A stretch of DNA of 52,640 nucleotides from Candidatus Magnetocorallium paracelense. GTDB lineage: Bacteria > Nitrospirota > Thermodesulfovibrionia > Thermodesulfovibrionales > Magnetobacteriaceae. Positions 5,025-28,903 of the stretch are shown one piece after another. The position numbers and the translations under genes were made by a program. The notes under the pieces were generated by a model. It saw only the letters and a program-made list of their open reading frames with translations, was not told the DNA's origin and made no database searches. Every line of letters starts with the position of its first letter. Position 1 is the stretch's first letter. The stretch is from contig JAREWP010000071.1 in the NCBI GenBank assembly GCA_029001845.1, positions 1-52,640 on the forward strand, written 5' to 3'.

Positions 5025-5789
5025 ATGGTAAGAAAATTACTAAGGCATGTTTACCATAATTTTCTGCCTGCTCACATGAGACAGACCCTCGATATTTTCA
5101 GTAATCTCAGGGACAGGCGGAAAATCGATACTCCGTCAGGAAAAATCCTTGCCATAGCGCCTCACCCTGACGACGATGTAATTGCCTGTGGAGGCGCCAT
5201 ATACCAAAGCTTTCTGAATGACTCAGAAATAACAGCCGTATATATGACTGACGGAAGAAAGGGGAGCACATCCATCTCCGAAGAGAAACTGATCTCGATC
5301 AGAAAGGAAGAAGCTCGTATTGCCGCCTCGATTATAGGCATAAAAAAAACGATATTTCTCGATAACAGAGACTCTGAACTCGCCCTTTCAGACAAAACAG
5401 TCTCCGCTCTTTCAGAAGTTATTAAAGAAACCAAACCGGATGCTGTATTCCTCCCTTTTATAATGGACTCCCATCATGATCACATAGCTACAAACAGAAT
5501 ATTTATAGCTGCGTTAAAGAATCTCCCCTCTGTCATGTGTTATGCCTGGGGATTATGGACTCCGTTATCGGTTTTTAACTGCATCCTCGATATTTCGCCA
5601 TATATGGATATTAAAAAAAAGGCCATAGAATCCCACATTTCACAGACAAAGGAAGCCGATATCGTTGGAGCGGTTTTTGGTCTTAACAAGTACTACTCGG
5701 TCATGTCTGGCGGTAACGGATGGGCCGAAGTGTTTATCGCCTGTCATTCGGATCAATATATTAGACTTGCGGAGGTTGTTAAATGGTAG
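5025..5789 (+). CDS. PIG-L (LmbE-like) family deacetylase
   Basis: This 254-residue enzyme belongs to the zinc-dependent PIG-L family, which removes N-acetyl groups from sugar-linked GlcNAc-type substrates. The signature PHPDDD is at residues 46-51 (metal ligand H47 and catalytic Asp), RKEEARIAASIIGI at 93-107 matches the helix that follows in the family, and HHDH at 150-153 supplies the later metal ligand. The length is usual. It opens an operon with a GNAT-like protein (7-base overlap), a GT4 glycosyltransferase and a multi-pass glycosyltransferase-like protein. This context suggests deacetylation of an amino sugar on a surface glycan or its lipid-linked precursor. The exact substrate cannot be told from sequence. 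Confidence 0.88.
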   Translation: MVRKLLRHVYHNFLPAHMRQTLDIFSNLRDRRKIDTPSGKILAIAPHPDDDVIACGGAIYQSFLNDSEITAVYMTDGRKGSTSISEEKLISIRKEEARIAASIIGIKKTIFLDNRDSELALSDKTVSALSEVIKETKPDAVFLPFIMDSHHDHIATNRIFIAALKNLPSVMCYAWGLWTPLSVFNCILDISPYMDIKKKAIESHISQTKEADIVGAVFGLNKYYSVMSGGNGWAEVFIACHSDQYIRLAEVVKW

Positions 5790-6859
5790 AAAAAAATTTT
5801 GAAATAAGGCCATACAAAGAGGGTGAAGGTGAGGCCATCAATAATCTTTTTGAAAAAGTCTTTCATAAAAAACGAAGTTTTAAAGAGTGGAAATGGAAGT
5901 TTTTGGACAATCCCGCAGTTGACGATCCCTCGGACTGGATATCCATTGCAGAGAGAGAGGGTTCCATCATTGGCCATTACGCCAGTATCTCTCTTGAAAT
6001 GAAGGTGGGAGATAGAATCATAAAAACGCCCCAACCGGTGGACTCCATGATTGACCCTGACAGTAAAGCAGGAATTAAATTATTCAGACAGCTCAATAAA
6101 CATAATGTGGAGATAACATCGAAACATACATACTTCGGTTTCGGATTTCCCAATGAAACAGCTTATAAAGTCGGTAAAAAGATGCTCGGGTATATGGATA
6201 CAGGCAGGATGATCCCCCTGTTCAGAAGACTTGGCGTCAGAACGATCATTAAAAGACGGTTAACCTGGCTCCCGGCTTTAATAATTGATATTCTACATAA
6301 ACTGATGTGTTTTATATATGCTTTTCTGCTAAAAACCGGAAAAACAGATAAAAGCGTGGATGTATCTCTTTACGACTCATTCTCCGAAATAGAAAACAGA
6401 GAGAGTTTAGAGTCTCTCTGCAACGCCATGAAGGATAGATACGAGATTATCAATATCAGGACCATACCCTATCTGATCTGGAGATACACCGGCAGAGAGA
6501 TCAAGATTATTACTATTGAATCGGAAAATGAAATGACGGGCTTTGCCGTAGTTACCGTGGAGGAGGAAGAAGAGTCGAGAACCGGCTATATTCTGGATAT
6601 TGTTTACAAAGATAAAGTGACTGTTCTCATAAATGAAACGGTCAGGTATTTTCTGGACAGGAAAGCGGATTTTATCTTATGCGCCCTCATTGATGGAGAC
6701 CCGATGGCAGAGGATTTAAAAAAGAGCGGTTTCTCCGAGCACACCTCTTTTAAACCGTTCCCTTTGGTCTATTTTCACTTTCACAGTAAAGAAGGAGACG
6801 ATTTTCTAAAAAATCCATCAAACTGGCATCTCACCTACAGCGATTCGGACAGATTTTGA
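5783..6859 (+). CDS. GNAT-like N-acyltransferase of a glycan operon
   Basis: The 358-residue protein starts with IRPYKEGEGEAINNLFEKVF and WKWKFLDNP, then a strand SIIGHYASISLEMKVGDRII. That layout is typical of the long GNAT-related proteins found in polysaccharide clusters, where an N-terminal acyltransferase fold is followed by a poorly conserved second half. A hydrophobic patch near residues 170-190 might touch the membrane. The start overlaps the stop of the PIG-L gene by 7 bases (ATGGTAG), and its own stop overlaps the TTG start of the next gene by 4, so translation is probably coupled. A likely role is to re-acylate the amino group freed by the neighbouring deacetylase. That link is inference from gene order. 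Confidence 0.7.
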   Translation: MVEKNFEIRPYKEGEGEAINNLFEKVFHKKRSFKEWKWKFLDNPAVDDPSDWISIAEREGSIIGHYASISLEMKVGDRIIKTPQPVDSMIDPDSKAGIKLFRQLNKHNVEITSKHTYFGFGFPNETAYKVGKKMLGYMDTGRMIPLFRRLGVRTIIKRRLTWLPALIIDILHKLMCFIYAFLLKTGKTDKSVDVSLYDSFSEIENRESLESLCNAMKDRYEIINIRTIPYLIWRYTGREIKIITIESENEMTGFAVVTVEEEEESRTGYILDIVYKDKVTVLINETVRYFLDRKADFILCALIDGDPMAEDLKKSGFSEHTSFKPFPLVYFHFHSKEGDDFLKNPSNWHLTYSDSDRF

Positions 6860-8082
6860 AGATACTCCATGTAAACGAATTTCATGGCAATATCGGTGGC
6901 GCCGAGAAGTATGTTAGTGATCTATCCGGGTATTTGAAAGAGTACGGTCATGAATCATATTTTTTGTCATCTGTGAAGAGCGAAAATTCTGACACCAAAC
7001 CGGAGAAAGGTTATTTTATTGCCGGTTCATACGGAATACGAAGTTCTTTAAGAACTGTTGATCGTGTTAAAAACATATTAAAGAGAGAAAAACCCGATAT
7101 ACTCCATCTCCACAATACCTCCAATTTCATAAGCCCCATTGTCCTTGCATCGCTCTCCCATTACGCGCCGGTTGTAAAAACCGTACATGACACACGTCTT
7201 TTTTGCCCCGGACGCCTGTGGAAGGTAATACCCAAAAGCGGACAGGAGTGTAAATACCCTGCCGGGCTTGCATGCTCTCTCCGTGGCTGTTATCCCTTTA
7301 TTCCATCAGACAAAGGAGTTATACGCAATCTCCATAAATTGCTGCTCATACTTGCTGACCTGGCATTGCACAGAAAAATAATCGACACCCTGATTGTATC
7401 GAGTAATTATATGCGAGTTGAATTATTGAAAAACCGATTCAAAGATGAAAAAATAAAAATCATTCCCATGTATACGAATAAAGCCATGAATCGTACAACC
7501 CAAAACGACAAAAAGGAGTGTAAATTCATACTTTTCACAGGCAGACTGGAGAAGATTAAAGGTGTTTTCGAATTCATTACTGCCCTTGATCATATAAGAG
7601 AAAACAACTGGAATGCTACCATAGTGGGAGATGGCCGGGAAAAGGAAGAAGCCATAAACAGGGCAAAAAGACTTGGACTCTCCGACAGAATAACATTTAC
7701 AGGTTCCCTGTACAATGATGAGATCGACAGCATCTATACAGAGTCTGACATTGTTGTAATACCATCTATGATACCCGAGTCTTTCTGTCTGGTCGGCATC
7801 GAAGCCATGGCTTTCTCAAAACCTGTTGTGGCTTTCGATTCCGGCGGGATTGACCAGTGGCTGACAAACGGAAAAACAGGAGCTCTCATAAAAAGAGGAG
7901 ACACCAAAGCGCTGGCTGACAGAATTCTCTATCTTTTAAACAATCCTGAAAAGGCAAATCAAATGGGCACAATCGGCAAAACAACAGTTGACCGCTTTTA
8001 CAGAAGAGAATCTCATTTAACTGCATTACTGGAAGTATATAGAAAGGCAATTATGCTTCGACATCCAATACCATTATCTTAA
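6856..8082 (+). CDS. GT4-family glycosyltransferase, C-terminus altered by insertion
   Basis: This 408-residue GT-B enzyme starts at TTG (6856-6858), overlapping the previous stop as TTGA. The N-terminal domain shows the GGAEKY acceptor-side loop (residues 14-19). The C-terminal domain carries FTGRLEKIKGV and the retaining EX7E motif, E308 to E316, in ESFCLVGIEA. It should move a nucleotide-activated sugar onto a glycan at the cytoplasmic membrane. The last residues, PIPLS, are encoded by repeat A3. Joining the two copies of the 12-bp duplication (8054-8065 and 8520-8531) restores the ending RHLQKNKG and a TAA at 8549-8551, two bases before the next ATG. The catalytic domain is untouched, so the enzyme is probably active. 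Confidence 0.9.
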   Translation: MKILHVNEFHGNIGGAEKYVSDLSGYLKEYGHESYFLSSVKSENSDTKPEKGYFIAGSYGIRSSLRTVDRVKNILKREKPDILHLHNTSNFISPIVLASLSHYAPVVKTVHDTRLFCPGRLWKVIPKSGQECKYPAGLACSLRGCYPFIPSDKGVIRNLHKLLLILADLALHRKIIDTLIVSSNYMRVELLKNRFKDEKIKIIPMYTNKAMNRTTQNDKKECKFILFTGRLEKIKGVFEFITALDHIRENNWNATIVGDGREKEEAINRAKRLGLSDRITFTGSLYNDEIDSIYTESDIVVIPSMIPESFCLVGIEAMAFSKPVVAFDSGGIDQWLTNGKTGALIKRGDTKALADRILYLLNNPEKANQMGTIGKTTVDRFYRRESHLTALLEVYRKAIMLRHPIPLS

Positions 8083-21317: not shown

Positions 21318-21701
21318 TCACCATGCATTTTTTACGATAACTTCAGGCATTGGGTAGTGCTTTTTGTTCAAAGTATAGATATGTCCGCCCGTTTCAATAG
21401 CCGTTGCAGCCAGGATAACATCATTTACGTCGACTCCATGACCGGGATGCCATTTTCGAAACAGCTTCCCTGCCGTATCAATAATGCGTTGGTCGATTGA
21501 TGCGGTTTTAAATTGAGAAAGTAGCAGTTCCGTGGTTTCCACTTCATTGGATCTCATAAAAAAAACGATTTCAGCTCTTTGTAGCGCTCCTGTCCAAAGT
21601 TCATACTCGTTGGCATCCCTAATTCTCTTTAAAAATTCAGCTGCCTCGGTGTTACCTCTAAGCTGCCAGATTAAGATGTCCGAATCGATGTATGCTCTCA
21701 T
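21318..21701 (-). CDS. PIN-domain toxin, VapC-like
   Basis: The 127-residue protein is a PIN-domain ribonuclease of the kind that acts as a VapC toxin. The acidic centre is visible: D6 and D8 in AYIDSDILIW, E44 in RAEIVFF, and D91/D94 in VDVNDVILAATA. The later block reads IYTLNKKHY, where the family often has TxNxxHF. VapC proteins cut tRNA or rRNA when not neutralised. The likely antitoxin is the small ribbon-helix-helix protein at 21863-22129, upstream on the same strand, but repeat C2 now separates the pair. No close Shine-Dalgarno site is visible, so toxin translation may have depended on coupling that was lost. Confidence 0.87.
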   Translation of the reverse strand: MRAYIDSDILIWQLRGNTEAAEFLKRIRDANEYELWTGALQRAEIVFFMRSNEVETTELLLSQFKTASIDQRIIDTAGKLFRKWHPGHGVDVNDVILAATAIETGGHIYTLNKKHYPMPEVIVKNAW

Positions 21702-21882
21702 ATATTATCTAAAAACAGCAGTCAGCTATCAGTGGTCAGCCTTCAGCTTAGGCAAGCATTGATGTTATGCCAATAATAATCTTCACCACTTCACCTTATG
21801 GGTGAATCTGTTTTGAACCATAAAGTGTTGTAATTAAAGAGCTGATAGCTGATGGCTGACAGCTAAATGCTGTTTTTATTAT
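21702..21882. repeat. family C inverted repeat C2, inserted between antitoxin and toxin genes
   Basis: The ends read TCTAAAAACAGCAGTCAGC and GCTAAATGCTGTTTTTATTA, inverted to each other, with inner arms TCAGCCTTCAGC and GCTGATGGCTGACAGC. The element fills the space between the vapB-like and vapC-like genes, and its right end supplies the antitoxin's last residues (NKNSI) and stop. The run of T at one end and A at the other would favour termination between the two genes. Confidence 0.75.
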
Positions 21883-22129
21883 ATCTGAACATTGAGTTTC
21901 TGAATGCAGCTCTGGCATGACAAACTGTCTCTTCGGCGGATTCCTCCCTTAACCACGCACCACAGGTATCGTCAAACACATCTCTGTTCTTTTCAGAGTC
22001 CACTTTCATGCTGAGCAATTCAATCGCTGATTCAATAACAGCTTTTTTTGTTGTATTCATTCGATTTGCAAGATCGTTTATTTGACGAAGAATCCTGTCA
22101 TCGATTCTGGCCGACAAAACTTTATCCAT
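21863..22129 (-). CDS. ribbon-helix-helix antitoxin, VapB-like, tail altered by repeat
   Basis: The 88-residue protein has an N-terminal ribbon-helix-helix fold: KVLSARIDDRILRQINDLAN then TTKKAVIESAIELL, typical of DNA-binding antitoxins. The middle (FDDTCGAWLREESAEETVCH) would wrap the toxin. The final residues after FRY are encoded by repeat C2, so the original C-terminus is gone. It probably represses its own promoter, which is clear just upstream: TTGACT and TATACT with an 18-base spacer at 22153-22182, and a perfect palindrome inside the spacer. GGGGGTGAT precedes the ATG as ribosome binding site. The toxin gene follows after C2. Confidence 0.8.
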   Translation of the reverse strand: MDKVLSARIDDRILRQINDLANRMNTTKKAVIESAIELLSMKVDSEKNRDVFDDTCGAWLREESAEETVCHARAAFRNSMFRYNKNSI

Positions 22130-22222: not shown

Positions 22223-23239
22223 TTAATGATCCAGAAGATGACAACTCAGGCAGGGGACGTGAAAATCCGGTGTGTACTCGGATTCGTTTCCGAGAATTCG
22301 TCTGGAAGCTCTAAATTTCTCGCTATTCCATATTTCGGTGAAATCATCGATCAGTATATTGCCCATAGAGCCGTCAAAAGTCAGGCAGCAGGGCCGAACC
22401 TCTCCGTTCCATGCAATATACACCTCTCTCCATAATCTATGACACTTTTTCATCTTTGTACGAAGGAGATTCGATTTTTCCGCTATTTCCTTGTGATCGG
22501 TTTTATGGGGGACATATCTGGGGCCAAAATCTTTTAATATAAACTCCTCCACGCCAAGGCGCTTTCCAAATTCCATGGTTTCGGAGATTTCATGCCTGTT
22601 ATGATCCATTACGATAAACTGTATTTGAATTACCGGAGTTCCGGCTGAGAGTTCTCTCTTTCTCTTCATAATCGCTTCGATGTTTTGCTTAACGATTTCA
22701 ACGTCTCCGTTCACCCTGTACTTCCTGTAAGTTTCCTGGCTGAATCCGTCAAGACTCACGACAATCAGTTCAAGACCGGAATCGATTATCTTATCGATAT
22801 CCCCGTTTTTCAAATGACAGAGATTAGTGCTCAAAACCGTTCTTATCTTACTACCTGAAGCATACTTAATCATGTCGAAAATATCTTTATGGAGAAAGGG
22901 TTCTCCAAAACCGAAGAGAAGGATTTCGTAAAGATATTCCTTTAAGGGATCAACCGTTTTTTTAAAGTCACTCAATTCCATTTTTCCCGGAGGATCGGGA
23001 TTCACTCCCAAGCCTGTAGGGCAGGTAGGGCATTTCAATTGGCAAAGGTTCACAGGCTCTATCTGAGCAATATAGGGATATCCCCTGACTCTCTCTTTTT
23101 TTAAATGATATTGAATATTAACGGACAAAAAGTTGAGCACCTTTCTAAAATCGCTCTGTTTAACGAACGATCCCAAAAGTCGACTGTATCGCTTGAGTAA
23201 AAGAAACCTCGAAAGAGCAGCCCGCCTTTTTATCTTCAT
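22223..23239 (-). CDS. radical SAM/SPASM protein
   Basis: I start at the second ATG (MKIKRR at 23237-23239), because AGGAACAG just before it is a better ribosome site than anything before the first ATG four codons upstream; this gives 338 residues. The cluster motif CQLKCPTC lies near residue 66, followed by GFGEPFLHKD and STNLCHL. The C-terminus carries further Cys residues (KKCHRLWREVYIAWNGEVRP then CC, and CLSCHLLD), as in SPASM domains that bind extra Fe-S clusters. It is last in an operon after three alkaline-phosphatase-superfamily genes and is separated from them by a heptamer repeat. Related proteins act on peptides or lipid-linked intermediates. The substrate is unknown. Confidence 0.85.
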   Translation of the reverse strand: MKIKRRAALSRFLLLKRYSRLLGSFVKQSDFRKVLNFLSVNIQYHLKKERVRGYPYIAQIEPVNLCQLKCPTCPTGLGVNPDPPGKMELSDFKKTVDPLKEYLYEILLFGFGEPFLHKDIFDMIKYASGSKIRTVLSTNLCHLKNGDIDKIIDSGLELIVVSLDGFSQETYRKYRVNGDVEIVKQNIEAIMKRKRELSAGTPVIQIQFIVMDHNRHEISETMEFGKRLGVEEFILKDFGPRYVPHKTDHKEIAEKSNLLRTKMKKCHRLWREVYIAWNGEVRPCCLTFDGSMGNILIDDFTEIWNSEKFRASRRILGNESEYTPDFHVPCLSCHLLDH

Positions 23240-23262
23240 CTGTTCCTGCATAACAAACCAAA

Positions 23263-23318
23263 ATCATCAATCATCAATCATCAATCATCAATCATCAATC
23301 ATCAATCATCAATCGTCA
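23263..23318. repeat. tandem heptamer repeat (ATCATCA)n
   Basis: There are eight tandem 7-bp units: seven perfect ATCATCA, then one ATCGTCA. The last unit overlaps the stop codon of the phosphodiesterase gene at 23316-25019, and the array ends 12 bp before the first ATG of the radical SAM gene. Copy number changes could alter the distance between the two genes without touching either frame. Confidence 0.95.
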
Positions 23319-25019
23319 TTCTATATACCCGATATCCCTCAACCTCTCCCTTACCAATTCTGATTCCTCATCTGTAAAGGGTTGTGCTTCATGAGATTCC
23401 ATTTGCGATTCCTTGGAAAATTTCTTCTCATGGGAGTTCAGGTAATCTTCCGTGAAAAGTTCATCCAGTACTTTTCCGTCCATCTCTTCCGGGACAGGCA
23501 ACCCGAGCAAATAGAGCAAAGTAGGCGTTACGTCGATAATACGGGCATCGGATATTGTTGCACCTTTTTTTATTCCGGGACCGGATGCAACGACAACTCC
23601 GTCCATTGTGTGATTCCCGGACCATCTGTGACCGGCGAAGAGTTGCTCACTGTCAATACCCATATAAATCTGTTGAAGCTCACCGCTTCCGTGGTATCCG
23701 TCCTCTAAAATACATATAAGATCGGGAGCGTCGACAGAGCTGTCGCCTGTATATATATCTTCAGGTTTATGAACGGCCCTCACGATATGTCTGCCTGTTT
23801 CGGGGTCCTTAATTAAACTCATCTTTTCGATAATCTCGCTTCTCATTTCTTCATACTCTTTACCGGGGCTTACATTACCATCGGGATACTTACCTTTGGT
23901 ATTTATGAAAATGGCAGGATAACTGCCTTCACAAAAAACCTTTGTCCTTGCCCAGTCCACGTTATTCATATAGTAAGAAGATATCTTCGCAGTGGCGAAT
24001 TTTAGAAATCTCGTCATAATCTTCTGAAACGTATCGCTGCCAGCCCTTTGACCCACAGGGATGATGATGTTATTGGAGATATTTCTTAATGCTTTCACTG
24101 CATGGTATGTAAGACCTTTTTCAGAATCCTCTTTAAGATGAAAATATCCTTCTTTCCTCAGCCAGTTATTGATCGAGAAGTTTTTGAAAAGAGGCCCCTG
24201 ACCGTGGTCGGATACGATCAATATGGATGTATCGGGGTCCGTTAAAGCGATCACCTCGCCTAAGAGGTCGTCCATCTTCTCGTATATTCTGAAAATATAG
24301 TCTCCGAATTTTTTATGGAGTTCTTCTTTATATTCAGGATGATTCTTATCCATATATTTCCAGCAACTGTGCTGAATAAAATCCGTTATGGTAAGTACAT
24401 AAAAGAAAAGGTTCCACTCTTTGTTCTGCAATAAGTACTTTAGCGCCTTTCCCTGAATATCGATAATATCGGTGAGGGCTTTAAAGAATCTCGGATTTTC
24501 GGGGTCGGAATTGATAATCACGTCCTGATTGATGGCATAATTTCCAACCTCTCTTATGAGCTCATCATACAGATCGTGAGGTTCAAAGGTAAATTCGCTT
24601 TTCACCTTCGGGCTGTCAAGGCCGGCGATCATAAAACCGTTCACTTTCTCTGCCGGGTAAGTCATGGGTATATTCATGACTCCCACATCGCCTCCATTGT
24701 CTGAGATGATCTTCCAAATGGCTTTCGCCCTCCTGAATGAGGCGTTAAGCGGGACAAAGTTGTAACTTCCCTCTTTATTAAAAAGAAAATCAAAAATTCC
24801 GTGTTTTCCGGGATTGACGCCGGTAACCATCGACGTCCATGCCACGGCGCTGAGAGGGGGAAGAGTAGATGTGAGGCAGCCTCTTGTTCCGGAGCCCATG
24901 AGTTTTTTCAGATTAGGGAGTTTTCCCTCTTTTATCATTGGATCGATTATATCGAATGTAGCACCGTCCACTCCGAATACAATTACTTTCGAAGTCTCTG
25001 TTTTCTCTTTTTTTTCCAT
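23316..25019 (-). CDS. alkaline-phosphatase-superfamily phosphodiesterase, first paralog
   Basis: This 567-residue protein is of the type I phosphodiesterase/nucleotide pyrophosphatase group. The metal and nucleophile region is clear: VIVFGVDGATFDII (D18), STLPPLSAVAWTSM with probable nucleophile T52, TGVNPGKHGIFDF, and later ILIVSDHGQGP and FAGHRWSGNHTMDGV. Such enzymes cleave phosphomono- or diesters, for example on lipid or glycan headgroups. I see no signal peptide or membrane segment, so the protein as written is cytoplasmic unless the start is wrong. It follows its paralog directly: that gene's TAG stop is immediately before this ATG. Both end in the same RLRGLGYID/RLRDIGYIE sequence, which points to tandem duplication. 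Confidence 0.85.
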   Translation of the reverse strand: MEKKEKTETSKVIVFGVDGATFDIIDPMIKEGKLPNLKKLMGSGTRGCLTSTLPPLSAVAWTSMVTGVNPGKHGIFDFLFNKEGSYNFVPLNASFRRAKAIWKIISDNGGDVGVMNIPMTYPAEKVNGFMIAGLDSPKVKSEFTFEPHDLYDELIREVGNYAINQDVIINSDPENPRFFKALTDIIDIQGKALKYLLQNKEWNLFFYVLTITDFIQHSCWKYMDKNHPEYKEELHKKFGDYIFRIYEKMDDLLGEVIALTDPDTSILIVSDHGQGPLFKNFSINNWLRKEGYFHLKEDSEKGLTYHAVKALRNISNNIIIPVGQRAGSDTFQKIMTRFLKFATAKISSYYMNNVDWARTKVFCEGSYPAIFINTKGKYPDGNVSPGKEYEEMRSEIIEKMSLIKDPETGRHIVRAVHKPEDIYTGDSSVDAPDLICILEDGYHGSGELQQIYMGIDSEQLFAGHRWSGNHTMDGVVVASGPGIKKGATISDARIIDVTPTLLYLLGLPVPEEMDGKVLDELFTEDYLNSHEKKFSKESQMESHEAQPFTDEESELVRERLRDIGYIE

Positions 25020-26669
25020 TTAGTCTATATACCCCAATCCCCTTAATCTCTCCTTAACGGCCTCCTCTTCGGTTTCGGAGAAGTGTCTTTCACCTTCCGA
25101 AGCGGAGTCGTTTTCTCTAACCAAATCACCCGGCTCGGAGTAAACAGGGGAGTTTTCTTTAAGATAGTCATTGGTAAATGCATCACTGAGAAGGTCGCCG
25201 TCCATATCTCCGGGAATCTCCTGATTCATCAGGTAAAGGATAGTCGGTGTAATATCTACAATGGCGGCATCTGTAATTGTATGGCCCTCTTTAACGCCCG
25301 GGCCTTTTATAACGAATATACCCTCAGGACAATGATTCCCTGACCATATATGTTTTTGAAAGAGTCCCTTATCCTTTCCTCTCTTTTCCGCCAGAGGAGT
25401 CCTCTCCACAGCGGATGAAACGAAGTAATGTTCCCTGCTTGTAGCAATAATATCAGGCGCTTCTTCAAAAAAGGGACCTGTGAAAATCTCTTCCCTTTTG
25501 TAAACGCGCTCTACTACGGGAAGTCCATTTTCAGGGTCCCTCACTTCCATTAATCCACTCATTATATCGTTACGGACCTGCTCGTATTCATCTCCGGGTT
25601 CTACAATTCCCAGCGGCTCCCTGCCTATGAGGTTTACATAGATATAACCGAATGCTCCGTCTGAATAGGCCTTTGTATTCTCCCACTCTATAGATGTAGC
25701 GGGATTTCGAGAATTATCCCTTGGACTTCTCTTTTTAAGGGAAAGCCTGTTTTTAACTTTACCGGCCAGAGAAGATAATCTGCCCATAGACCTGGACGCC
25801 AATGTCTCCTCTTTAAAACAAAGAAAACCCTTTTCGCTCAACCAGTTGTTTAAAATAAAAATCTTATGAAGCCCGTGAAATCCATGGTCTGAAACGAGCA
25901 TAAAAGTCGTGTCTTCACTATATCGGTTTACAAGCGTACCAATATATTCGTCCATTTTCCTGTAAACATCGGGAATTGCATTTTTGAATCGTTCCGGTGT
26001 ATTTGTATTATGGTCGGGATGAATTTTGTCCATATCCTTCCAGTAGAAGTGTTGTGCGCCATCTGTTTCAATAAATACAATCATGGTAAAATCGGGATCG
26101 TACTTCTTTGTAAGCAGGTCCGCTGCTTTTTGACGGGTATCTATCATTTTAAAGAGACCGTTCAGGTGTTCCTCTTTGGACTTCATAAATGAGGCCGGAT
26201 TGATAATATTATAAGAACCAAGACCTTTTTTTAAATCCTCTTGAACAGAGGGGGGGTAAGTATAATCTTCATTCACTCCCGGTGCGTCGATACCTGAAAC
26301 AATAAAACCATTGACCTTTTCCGGGGGGTAGGACATTGTGACATTAATTACCCCCACTTTTTTACCTTTATCACTGAGAAAGGACCATACCGGTTTTACC
26401 ACACGATCTCCGCCGCGAACTCCGCGAAAGTCATAGGAATCTCTTTTTCGTGTCATAAAATCATATATCGCATGATTACCCGGTTTCCTTCCGGTAATCA
26501 TGGAAGTCCAGGCCACGGGACTGAGGTCCGGTATGGTGGATTTGAGCACGCCGCTTGTACCGGAGTCGATAAGAGAAGAAATGTTTGGAAGGTCTCCCTC
26601 TTTGATCATGGGACGAATCACGTCGAATGTAGCGCCATCCAAACCGATAACTACCACTTTAGCCGACAT
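25020..26669 (-). CDS. alkaline-phosphatase-superfamily phosphodiesterase, second paralog
   Basis: The 549-residue protein is a close relative of the one encoded directly after it. Matching blocks are VVVIGLDGATFDVI (D11), STIPDLSPVAWTSM with probable nucleophile T45, TGRKPGNHAIYDFM, FMLVSDHGFHGL, and HIWSGNHCPEGI. The C-terminus ERLRGLGYID is shared with the paralog. The ATG overlaps the preceding sulfatase-like gene by 11 bases. The role is probably hydrolysis or transfer of a phospho-group on a glycolipid or polysaccharide; this rests on family knowledge only. As with its neighbour, no signal peptide is present, although the substrate-type context would suit a cell-surface location. Confidence 0.85.
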   Translation of the reverse strand: MSAKVVVIGLDGATFDVIRPMIKEGDLPNISSLIDSGTSGVLKSTIPDLSPVAWTSMITGRKPGNHAIYDFMTRKRDSYDFRGVRGGDRVVKPVWSFLSDKGKKVGVINVTMSYPPEKVNGFIVSGIDAPGVNEDYTYPPSVQEDLKKGLGSYNIINPASFMKSKEEHLNGLFKMIDTRQKAADLLTKKYDPDFTMIVFIETDGAQHFYWKDMDKIHPDHNTNTPERFKNAIPDVYRKMDEYIGTLVNRYSEDTTFMLVSDHGFHGLHKIFILNNWLSEKGFLCFKEETLASRSMGRLSSLAGKVKNRLSLKKRSPRDNSRNPATSIEWENTKAYSDGAFGYIYVNLIGREPLGIVEPGDEYEQVRNDIMSGLMEVRDPENGLPVVERVYKREEIFTGPFFEEAPDIIATSREHYFVSSAVERTPLAEKRGKDKGLFQKHIWSGNHCPEGIFVIKGPGVKEGHTITDAAIVDITPTILYLMNQEIPGDMDGDLLSDAFTNDYLKENSPVYSEPGDLVRENDSASEGERHFSETEEEAVKERLRGLGYID

Positions 26670-28125
26670 TTGTGGTCTCCTTTATCCAGGTATGCAGACT
26701 GTTTATCATCTCTTGTATCAGATTATTAAAATAGGGTGCATCGATAAGATTTCTCTCTTCAAAGGGATCATTTTCCAGATCATAAAAATAAAAGTTGTTT
26801 CCCTGCTTCAGCAGTTTAAATTGACTCCCTCTTGCGCACCAGAACTCGGCAAACATACTTTGAGGGCCGCCTGTGTCTCCAAGCTCCGGTAAAAGGGCAA
26901 GAAGATGAGAAAACACGATATCCTGCGTCTCGAACAGTTGGTTTGTAAGCATGGGAATCAGAGTTGTTCCCTGCATATAAAGCGGAATCTCTATACCGGC
27001 ATAATCAAGAACTGTCGGTGTAAGATCGATTAGATTTACCGGATGACTTATTAGATCGCCTGAATCGAGTTCCGGAGCACAGATAATAAGCGGTACATGT
27101 ATTACGCCTTCATTCAGAGATTTCCCGTGGGAAAAAGCAATTTCCGGCTTTTCCGCCATGATTTCTCCGTGATCGGAAGTAATTATCAGTAATGTTCTAT
27201 TCCACAATCCTGCTTCATGTAGGTGATGAACAATCCTTTCAATCAACATATCCGTTTGCCTGATATCACCGTCATAACCGGATATCCAGAGATTGGGATC
27301 GAAATTTCCTCGGGGATCTTCAAAGCTGCAATCACCGTAAAAATCATCCAACCAGGGATAGCGATCCGTTGTCAAATAGGAAGCTGTCATCAACCAAAGA
27401 GGATCAGTAGTTGCAACCAAATCTTCACATGTAAGCGATGTAACTTTACGCACAAGCCCGTCCTCCGTGAAACTTCTCAATATGTTATCGTCGGGCATAT
27501 ATGGCGTGTGAGGACTGATAAGTCCTATAAAAAGAAAAACTTTTCCCGATCTGTTTTCAGGATTATCCAACCATGAAATCAGTTTATCCATAAGTTGCAT
27601 ATCGTATATATTTTCAAAAGGCTCTCCCACCCAATCTTCATATTGATATTTTGTATCAAAACCGCGCAGCAGACCAAAATGGTCGTTTACAAATGAATTG
27701 GTCTGAAACGCAGCGGTATTGAACCCGTGATTTCTCAATATCTCCGCCAGCATGAGCGACTCTCCTTCATAAAAATCCGAAGGCGTAATCATACCGTGCG
27801 TTGTGGGATAGAGCCCTGTCAGCATCGTTGTAAAGGAAGGAAGAGTCCATGAGGAGGGAGCTATGGCGTTATAAAAAAGAGCCCCCCTCTTCGATAAATA
27901 GTCCATAAAGGGAGTCGTATCTCTCGGGTAGCCGTAACAGCCTATATGATCAGCCCGTAATGTATCGGCCACAATCCAGACAATCACCGGGTTATCTGCA
28001 ACAGTATCGTACGGCCTGCTCCACAGTGGCAGGCGCTCGATAATCGAAGCATTGGAATGCTTTCTATCCAAGCAGGCCCCGGCAAGTCCCAAAGCCGTAG
28101 TCTTAAGAAAATCTCTTCTTTTCAT
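26659..28125 (-). CDS. sulfatase-family protein with twin-arginine signal, lacking the sulfatase Cys/Ser motif
   Basis: The 488-residue protein begins MKRRDFLKTTALGLAGAC, a twin-arginine signal with a Cys at the possible lipobox. It should be exported folded. The fold is that of sulfatases and phosphoethanolamine transferases: IVWIVADTLRADHIGCYGYP (D54), APSSWTLPSFTTMLTGLYPTTHG, LLIITSDHGEIMAEKP, and NPVNLIDLTPTVLDYAGIEIP-like ending blocks. True sulfatases need C/S-x-P-x-R at the nucleophile; here the place reads SSWTLPS (T94), so a formylglycine sulfatase is unlikely, and a Thr-nucleophile phosphotransferase or hydrolase fits better. It starts the four-gene operon. No Shine-Dalgarno site is obvious before the ATG. 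Confidence 0.85.
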   Translation of the reverse strand: MKRRDFLKTTALGLAGACLDRKHSNASIIERLPLWSRPYDTVADNPVIVWIVADTLRADHIGCYGYPRDTTPFMDYLSKRGALFYNAIAPSSWTLPSFTTMLTGLYPTTHGMITPSDFYEGESLMLAEILRNHGFNTAAFQTNSFVNDHFGLLRGFDTKYQYEDWVGEPFENIYDMQLMDKLISWLDNPENRSGKVFLFIGLISPHTPYMPDDNILRSFTEDGLVRKVTSLTCEDLVATTDPLWLMTASYLTTDRYPWLDDFYGDCSFEDPRGNFDPNLWISGYDGDIRQTDMLIERIVHHLHEAGLWNRTLLIITSDHGEIMAEKPEIAFSHGKSLNEGVIHVPLIICAPELDSGDLISHPVNLIDLTPTVLDYAGIEIPLYMQGTTLIPMLTNQLFETQDIVFSHLLALLPELGDTGGPQSMFAEFWCARGSQFKLLKQGNNFYFYDLENDPFEERNLIDAPYFNNLIQEMINSLHTWIKETTNVG

Positions 28126-28480: not shown

Positions 28481-28903
28481 ATGGGAGAAGTTCGTATTAA
28501 GGTAAATCTTACAAACCCTTTCGATCAGGCAATGGTGAGGGAGGGGTTTAAAAAAGAGGAAGACATAAGGTTTCTGGAAGTCGACGCCCTTATCGACACC
28601 GGAGCCGTTAATTGTGTTCTGCCTCAATATGTAGCAGACAGGCTGGGTTTGGCAAGACCTTTTCGTCAGGTGGCTGAATTTGCCGACGGTCGCAAGGAAG
28701 AAGTGGACGTAACCGAGCCTGTGTTGATGGAAATACTTAACAGGAAAGTTTATGAAGAGTGTCTCGTTTTGGGCGATGAAGTGCTGATCGGTCAAACGGC
28801 TCTGGAGTCGACCGACCTTTATGTGGATTGCAGAAATAACAGATTAATTCCTAACCCCGCTCATCCCTTCCAGCCTGTGATTAAAATAAAAGTAGCTACT
28901 TAG
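28481..28903 (+). CDS. clan AA aspartyl-protease-like protein
   Basis: The 140-residue protein carries the retroviral-type aspartyl protease motif DTGAVNCVLP (D39-T40-G41-A42) after a strand FLEVDALI, with later blocks VYEECLVLGDEVLIGQTALE and DLYVDCRNNRLIPNP. This single-lobe form works as a dimer and is common next to ATPases and toxin-antitoxin genes, often as a small family with no known target. The start has only a weak AGGA in front. The last three codons, ending ACT TAG, fall inside repeat B3, so the original C-terminus may have been replaced. The gene appears monocistronic. Confidence 0.8.
   Translation: MGEVRIKVNLTNPFDQAMVREGFKKEEDIRFLEVDALIDTGAVNCVLPQYVADRLGLARPFRQVAEFADGRKEEVDVTEPVLMEILNRKVYEECLVLGDEVLIGQTALESTDLYVDCRNNRLIPNPAHPFQPVIKIKVAT

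Follow-up and report, generated by a model that had tools for sequence, protein, structure and literature searches.

Among the closest described systems to the one considered here are VNG1056C (Agl30) and VNG1057C (Agl31) of Halobacterium salinarum, which gene deletion and expression in Haloferax volcanii have established as N-glycan sulfotransferases (Zaretsky et al., mBio 2025, PMC11980604). Agl30 is a membrane protein and Agl31 a cytosolic one, both belonging to the alkaline phosphatase (AP) superfamily, annotated as sulfatase-like and with sulfatase-like relatives, and both being encoded in an N-glycosylation cluster (PMC11980604). Here, we analyzed a 52,640-nucleotide stretch of Candidatus Magnetocorallium paracelense (contig JAREWP010000071.1, positions 1 to 52,640; hereafter the window), which makes up contig 4 of a draft genome of 6.0 Mb and carries at 22223-28125 a quartet of minus-strand genes, in the order SULF, PDEA, PDEB and rSAM, coding for a sulfatase-like protein, two phosphodiesterases (PDEs) and a radical SAM/SPASM protein. 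We propose, with a probability of roughly one half, that this quartet is a sulfo- or phospho-modification unit for a surface glycan, its substrate and chemistry being predicted; sulfate would be more likely than phosphate as the transferred group. The PDE family of glycan loci resembles Agl30 and Agl31, by description rather than by sequence alignment, in its superfamily and, as regards Agl31, in its cytosolic location. However, the Halobacterium enzymes form part of the sulfatase-like branch, whereas the window PDEs belong to the nucleotide pyrophosphatase/phosphodiesterase (NPP) branch. SULF of the window, for its part, has a twin-arginine translocation (Tat) signal and no tail. Of note, a haloarchaeal glycan cluster containing aglF (L253) encodes a sulfatase-like pair with a Thr at the nucleophile position and with the C-terminal LGY tails described below.

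PDEA and PDEB, which are 39% identical, match the Pfam family Phosphodiest (PF01663) with 154 and 131 bits, respectively, for a gathering cut-off of 23. A structure prediction of the active site, proposed as a check in the initial annotation of this locus from sequence, was run for PDEA: the AlphaFold2 model (mean predicted local distance difference test score, pLDDT, of 89) adopts the NPP fold with complete metal ligands, its best structural matches being nucleotide pyrophosphatase/phosphodiesterases (Xac NPP: Z 28.8, root-mean-square deviation 3.2, 344 residues aligned), and phosphonoacetate hydrolase is also among the nearest folds. The seven catalytic positions (D11, S/T50, D203, H207, D261, H262 and H446 in PDEA numbering) are kept in 55 of 55 aligned rows, and the two-metal centre is complete in PDEA and PDEB alike. 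PDEA is thus like the Xanthomonas NPP (2gsn/7n1s) in its fold, its two-metal ligands and its Ser/Thr nucleophile, but differs from it by its low identity (18%), its cytosolic location, its additional LGY tail and its glycan-locus context, its activity being predicted only. Both window proteins are expected to be cytosolic because they have no export signal and begin directly at the first catalytic strand. Assignment as phosphonoacetate hydrolase was rejected, the cut-off of TIGR02335 (407.55) not being reached by either PDEB (38 bits) or PDEA (28 bits). A scan of genome contigs with PDEA alone returned six pattern matches and no relatives.

Regarding the C-terminus, the shared ending RLRxxGYI, initially read as a feature of two tandem paralogues, is present in both proteins, but we rejected it as a marker of their paralogy since the tail is family-wide in bacteria and archaea. 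Indeed, an LxxLGY tail terminates, after a variable linker, 134 of the 146 PDEs longer than 500 aa in our set, haloarchaeal ones included, as well as 7 of 14 sulfatase-like relatives, chiefly those devoid of an export signal; haloarchaeal sulfatase-like proteins also carry it, whereas the exported SULF of the window does not. In PDEA, it is modelled as a helix (residues 532-544, pLDDT about 87) behind a low-confidence linker, and the 55-row alignment keeps Leu542 in 54 rows and Gly546-Tyr547 in 53. A DNA pattern for the tail was too loose to be useful in the own genome (57 matches vs 67 in the control, no excess), and among the in-frame matches followed up there only PDEs and CysD were real. 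A 73-aa ribbon-helix-helix-like protein ending in LKSLGYL lies beside PDE, CysD and CysN genes in locus L193.

The link to sulfation comes from the company that this family keeps. A search with one tailed sulfotransferase adjacent to a PDE led to five related genomes encoding single-chain fusions, in which a PF01663 domain is followed by an internal LV.LGYI-like element, TPR repeats and a sulfotransferase domain. The succession of phosphodiesterase domain and LGY element is that of PDEA and PDEB, while the TPR and sulfotransferase domains are additional and the PDE subfamily differs from that of the window. Around the PDEs, 17 of 1627 open reading frames (ORFs) outside the AP superfamily encode tailed proteins, and 15 of these are sulfotransferases, adenosine 5'-phosphosulfate (APS) kinase-like or CysD/PAPS_reduct-like proteins by Pfam or clear similarity, the remaining two being a ribbon-helix-helix protein beside such genes and an apparent chance match. 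Such a neighbour accompanies 11 of 38 tail-less PDEs vs none of 130 tailed ones, with a Fisher p of 2e-8 that overstates the association, given the relatedness of the loci and the retrieval of some of them by way of a sulfotransferase. Tail-less PDEs adjoin, or lie within two genes of, a tailed sulfotransferase, APS-kinase-like or CysD-like gene at L303, L305, L306, L307, L313, L111, L112, L083, L107 and L193. The own genome encodes CysD/CysN (contig C78) and an ATP sulfurylase for activated sulfate, together with a 457-aa protein (L315, contig C14) which has an APS kinase match and, by eye, a CysQ-like first part; a second CysQ-like gene, likewise read by eye, comes after it, both being downstream of GlmM/GlmS-like genes.

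These fusions would also be compatible with a hydrolase attached to the transferase whose by-product it removes. NPP enzymes are known to hydrolyse nucleotides, and the PDEs might accordingly be clean-up or proofreading enzymes for 3'-phosphoadenosine 5'-phosphate (PAP), 3'-phosphoadenosine 5'-phosphosulfate (PAPS), nucleoside diphosphate (NDP)-sugars or misplaced esters, in support of sulfotransferases and glycosyltransferases (GTs) but with no part in building the glycan. We hold this to be improbable: glycan loci contain two to five divergent PDE copies each, which better fits acceptor-specific enzymes, and a role as PAP phosphatase is weakened by the CysQ-like genes of the own genome.

Several observations weigh against the sulfation of a surface glycan by the window enzymes. 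No sulfate-activation or sulfotransferase gene was recognised within the window. PDEA and PDEB are in the tailed subfamily, whereas other PDE subfamilies are the ones found in the fusions and beside most of the sulfation neighbours, so that their own link to sulfation is by family only. The tail is ancestral in CysD, the Escherichia coli protein ending with KKRQGYF, which makes CysD neighbours weaker evidence than sulfotransferase neighbours, and some loci entered the set because they hold a sulfotransferase. Across the phylum, APS kinase is modestly enriched in genomes with PDEs (17/27 vs about 61/171, p about 0.01, by hand count at E <1e-50), and no APS kinase was convincingly matched (best E 2e-23) in JdFR-81, a genome that encodes several PDEs and carries two tailed SULF genes; it is therefore unlikely that every member of the family depends on PAPS. 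A further link, between radical SAM and sulfation genes at L105, was dropped, its 'CysN' being by eye a SelB-like factor.

We put forward as tentative, and rather unlikely, the broader proposal that a very large class of AP enzymes with an NPP fold, unrecognised so far and located in the cytosol of bacteria and archaea, sulfates glycans or edits their sulfate. An LxxLGY peptide, present in cis or on a sulfotransferase, APS-kinase or CysD-like protein encoded nearby, would dock these enzymes onto the machinery of sulfate activation. The window operon would then be a lineage-specific module to which a periplasmic enzyme for trimming and a radical SAM reaction have been added.

The surface-glycan context itself is drawn from other genomes, which were sampled rather than exhaustively searched, with gene calls that are simple ORF choices, some having wrong starts (e.g., L304), and with cluster labels from hidden Markov models built on clusters named by eye, Pfam supporting some of their members. 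Around the PDEs, GT4, GT2 and flippase genes reach 5.1, 2.5 and 1.9 per 100 kb vs 0.8, 0.8 and 0.3 in controls consisting of 20 arbitrarily placed regions from the same phylum only, one of which happened to contain a glycan locus. A cluster of the type flippase-PDE-PDE-(PQQ)-GT9-PDE-PIG-L-GNAT-GT4 recurs, with variations, in Brocadia (L119), a planctomycete (L145), BMS3Abin06 (L168), a deltaproteobacterium (L170) and JdFR-81 (L176), and in haloarchaea the PDE is likewise associated with GNAT, deacetylase and flippase genes. Tandem tailed PDEs beside GT4, flippase, PIG-L and GNAT genes are found in Brocadia, Planctomycetes, JdFR-81, BMS3Abin06 and Verrucomicrobia; the window pair instead has no adjacent GT or flippase gene and is joined to SULF and rSAM. 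A PIG-L deacetylase/GNAT/GT4 trio is present in the window, 14 kb from the quartet, and possibly serves the same pathway from a separate transcript. In our tree, PDEs of the own genome that match the recurrent cluster are on three other contigs (L084, L085, L086), and with the trio in the window this cluster appears to be scattered in the own genome. PDEA groups with a PDE that has a flippase gene on one side and a B12-radical SAM gene on the other (L139, support 93), while PDEB is unplaced. We found no direct report in the literature of this PDE family in glycan loci.

A conserved exopolysaccharide cluster was also encountered in Verrucomicrobia, Acidobacteria and Planctomycetes (L146, L165, L173, L186, L194 and others), with the order, subject to variation, PDE, GHMP-type sugar kinase, PDE, acetyltransferase, GT4, membrane fusion protein, TolC-like protein and flippase; in L165 and L173, an ATP-sulfurylase-like gene is just upstream.

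Glycan loci, together with nearest folds among NPP phosphodiesterases and phosphonoacetate hydrolase and with a Ser/Thr nucleophile, are also what one would expect of phosphodiesterases or phosphotransferases of a phospho-glycan, cleaving NDP-sugars or transferring a phosphodiester with no involvement of sulfate. We consider this reading possible, though on the unlikely side, since the wider family is repeatedly paired or fused with sulfotransferases and CysD-like proteins and since AP-superfamily members encoded in a glycosylation cluster have proved to be sulfotransferases (PMC11980604). On the same evidence, the initial suggestion that the operon modifies a phospho-glycan, a teichoic-like polymer or a lipid headgroup stands as far as the glycan-rich PDE loci point to the cell surface, while its phosphodiester chemistry is not favoured over sulfation.

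SULF matches Pfam Sulfatase (PF00884) with 161 bits, above the cut-off, and SGSH_C with 53 bits, the nearest solved chain being 4upi_A (E 6e-25). Formylglycine (type I) sulfatases need a C/S-x-P-x-R motif, in which the first residue is converted to formylglycine. As first described, SULF begins with a Tat-type sequence, MKRRDFLK, and reads SSWTLPS in place of this motif: Thr94 occupies the sulfatase Cys position, 10 residues ahead of the LTG Gly, in a column that is invariant in alignment A4. With Thr instead of Cys or Ser at the nucleophile site (SSW-T-L-P-S-F), SULF is ruled out as a formylglycine sulfatase. It shares the PF00884 core and a C-terminal domain with the arylsulfatase/phosphonate monoester hydrolase group, from which this Thr and the missing formylglycine motif set it apart. 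Assignments as phosphoethanolamine transferase (EptA, 37 bits for an NCBIfam cut-off of 500) or as the phosphoglycerol transferase LtaS (22 bits for 970) were also discarded.

The annotation of rSAM as a radical SAM/SPASM protein is borne out by Pfam (Radical_SAM PF04055, 60 bits; SPASM PF13186, 51 bits; both above the cut-off) and by its CxxxCxxC motif, while its scores for the NCBIfam models among the matches listed are all far short of the curated cut-offs. The sharing of a unit by a SPASM radical SAM gene and a sulfatase-like gene evokes an anaerobic sulfatase-maturating enzyme (anSME) that would make formylglycine in SULF. This is scarcely credible: the residue required for conversion is a Thr in SULF, the best 25 matches of rSAM to NCBIfam include no anSME model (9 weaker matches lie beyond these), the structure search with rSAM found no anSME structure, and its relatives adjoin GTs and PDEs, mostly with no sulfatase nearby.

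Under the proposed surface-glycan modification, PDEA and PDEB would work on the inner side of the membrane, where they would add, move or edit a sulfate (or phosphate) ester on an activated sugar or a lipid-linked glycan ahead of flipping. The Ser nucleophile, placed between the two metals, would relay this group, and the C-terminal LGY helix may dock each enzyme to a partner. SULF would then trim or rearrange esters outside the cell after flipping, while rSAM would alter, in the cytosol, a sugar or some other substrate; the PIG-L/GNAT/GT4 trio implies an amino-sugar glycan, which may be the one concerned. Sulfated surface glycans are difficult to detect by chemical means, and the bacterial enzymes making them are little known. 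The PDE family occurs in many bacterial and archaeal phyla, a single glycan locus often having several of its members, and its sole annotation is 'alkaline phosphatase family protein'; the sulfotransferase fusion, the shared tail and the published AP sulfotransferase precedent make this vague annotation testable in cultured Marichromatium, Lacipirellula and haloarchaea.

The initial annotation deduced a single unit from the tight packing of the four genes, and their coordinates agree: PDEA starts 11 nt inside SULF, the ATG of PDEB directly abuts the TAA of PDEA, and 64 nt separate PDEB from rSAM. A well-matching ribosome-binding sequence, aaggag, ahead of PDEA agrees with a single message; SULF, PDEA and PDEB are very likely co-transcribed, and it is plausible that rSAM is on the same transcript. 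A promoter scan was uninformative (16 matches vs 15.2 in the control, no excess). Like the initial annotation, we found no named pathway with this gene set. That annotation also proposed looking for the four families as neighbours in other genomes, and named their failure to co-occur as a refutation: this outcome holds for the exact quartet, which was found in no second genome among those searched, but not for subsets of it, which recur. G083 has rSAM-PDE-PDE-GT4, with a related rSAM directly upstream of a PDE-PDE pair (L076), and JdFR-81 has PDE-PDE-SULF-PDE (L176); sulfatase-like genes lie near PDEs in L093 and L096 as well, and L161 has all four families in a span of 12 kb, its SULF resembling that of the window only distantly. 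The uniqueness of the quartet, the dispersed repeat in the 64-nt gap and the vapBC-like genes next door would suit a fortuitous assembly, in which SULF-PDE-PDE form one unit to which rSAM is unrelated. We give this little credence in view of the G083 arrangement and of the 10 PDEs, out of 165, that have an rSAM/SPASM gene at most three genes away.

Table 1. Positions of the features discussed; L numbers denote loci outside the window.
Feature	Position	Strand	Basis
SULF, Tat-exported sulfatase-like hydrolase/transferase, 488 aa, no LGY tail	26659-28125	minus	Pfam PF00884
Tat-type motif RRDFLK of SULF	28102-28119	minus	sequence
SULF Thr94 codon, nucleophile position, T-L-P-S-F replacing C/S-x-P-x-R	27844-27846	minus	sequence
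PDEA, predicted cytosolic NPP-fold phosphodiesterase, 549 aa	25020-26669	minus	Pfam PF01663, AlphaFold2
PDEA Ser50 codon, nucleophile position	26520-26522	minus	alignment: Thr 33 / Ser 22 in 55 rows
PDEA C-terminal tail ERLRGLGYID	25023-25052	minus	model and alignment
PDEB, second predicted cytosolic phosphodiesterase, 567 aa	23316-25019	minus	Pfam PF01663
PDEB C-terminal tail ERLRDIGYIE	23319-23348	minus	sequence
7-bp tandem repeat, 8.1 copies, occupying the PDEB-rSAM gap	23262-23318	minus	sequence
rSAM, radical SAM/SPASM protein, 342 aa, start possibly Met5	22223-23251	minus	Pfam PF04055, PF13186
CxxxCxxC radical SAM cluster motif (C70, C74, C77)	23021-23044	minus	sequence
PIG-L deacetylase/GNAT/GT4 trio	5025-8082	plus	Pfam; homologues directly after PDE genes in L119, L170, L176, L082
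AP-LGY-TPR-sulfotransferase fusions	L345:1395-4103, L346:1109-3823, L347:4534-7359, L348:1014-3950, L349:3687-6503		Pfam for four
457-aa protein with APS kinase match, and the CysQ-like gene after it	L315:8171-10339
73-aa ribbon-helix-helix-like protein	L193:19443-19664
PIN-domain toxin gene and antitoxin candidate	21318-22129	minus
Clan AA aspartic protease-like gene	28481-28903	plus

Finally, the repeat between PDEB and rSAM belongs to a satellite, (GATTGAT)n, that is spread over six contigs of the own genome (the window, C16, C18, C52, C66 and C102), one array lying at the start of C102, the contig of an rSAM paralogue. The quartet is followed closely downstream by a PIN-domain (VapC-like) toxin gene and an 88-aa ribbon-helix-helix-like antitoxin candidate, and a clan AA aspartic protease-like gene adjoins the start of the operon.

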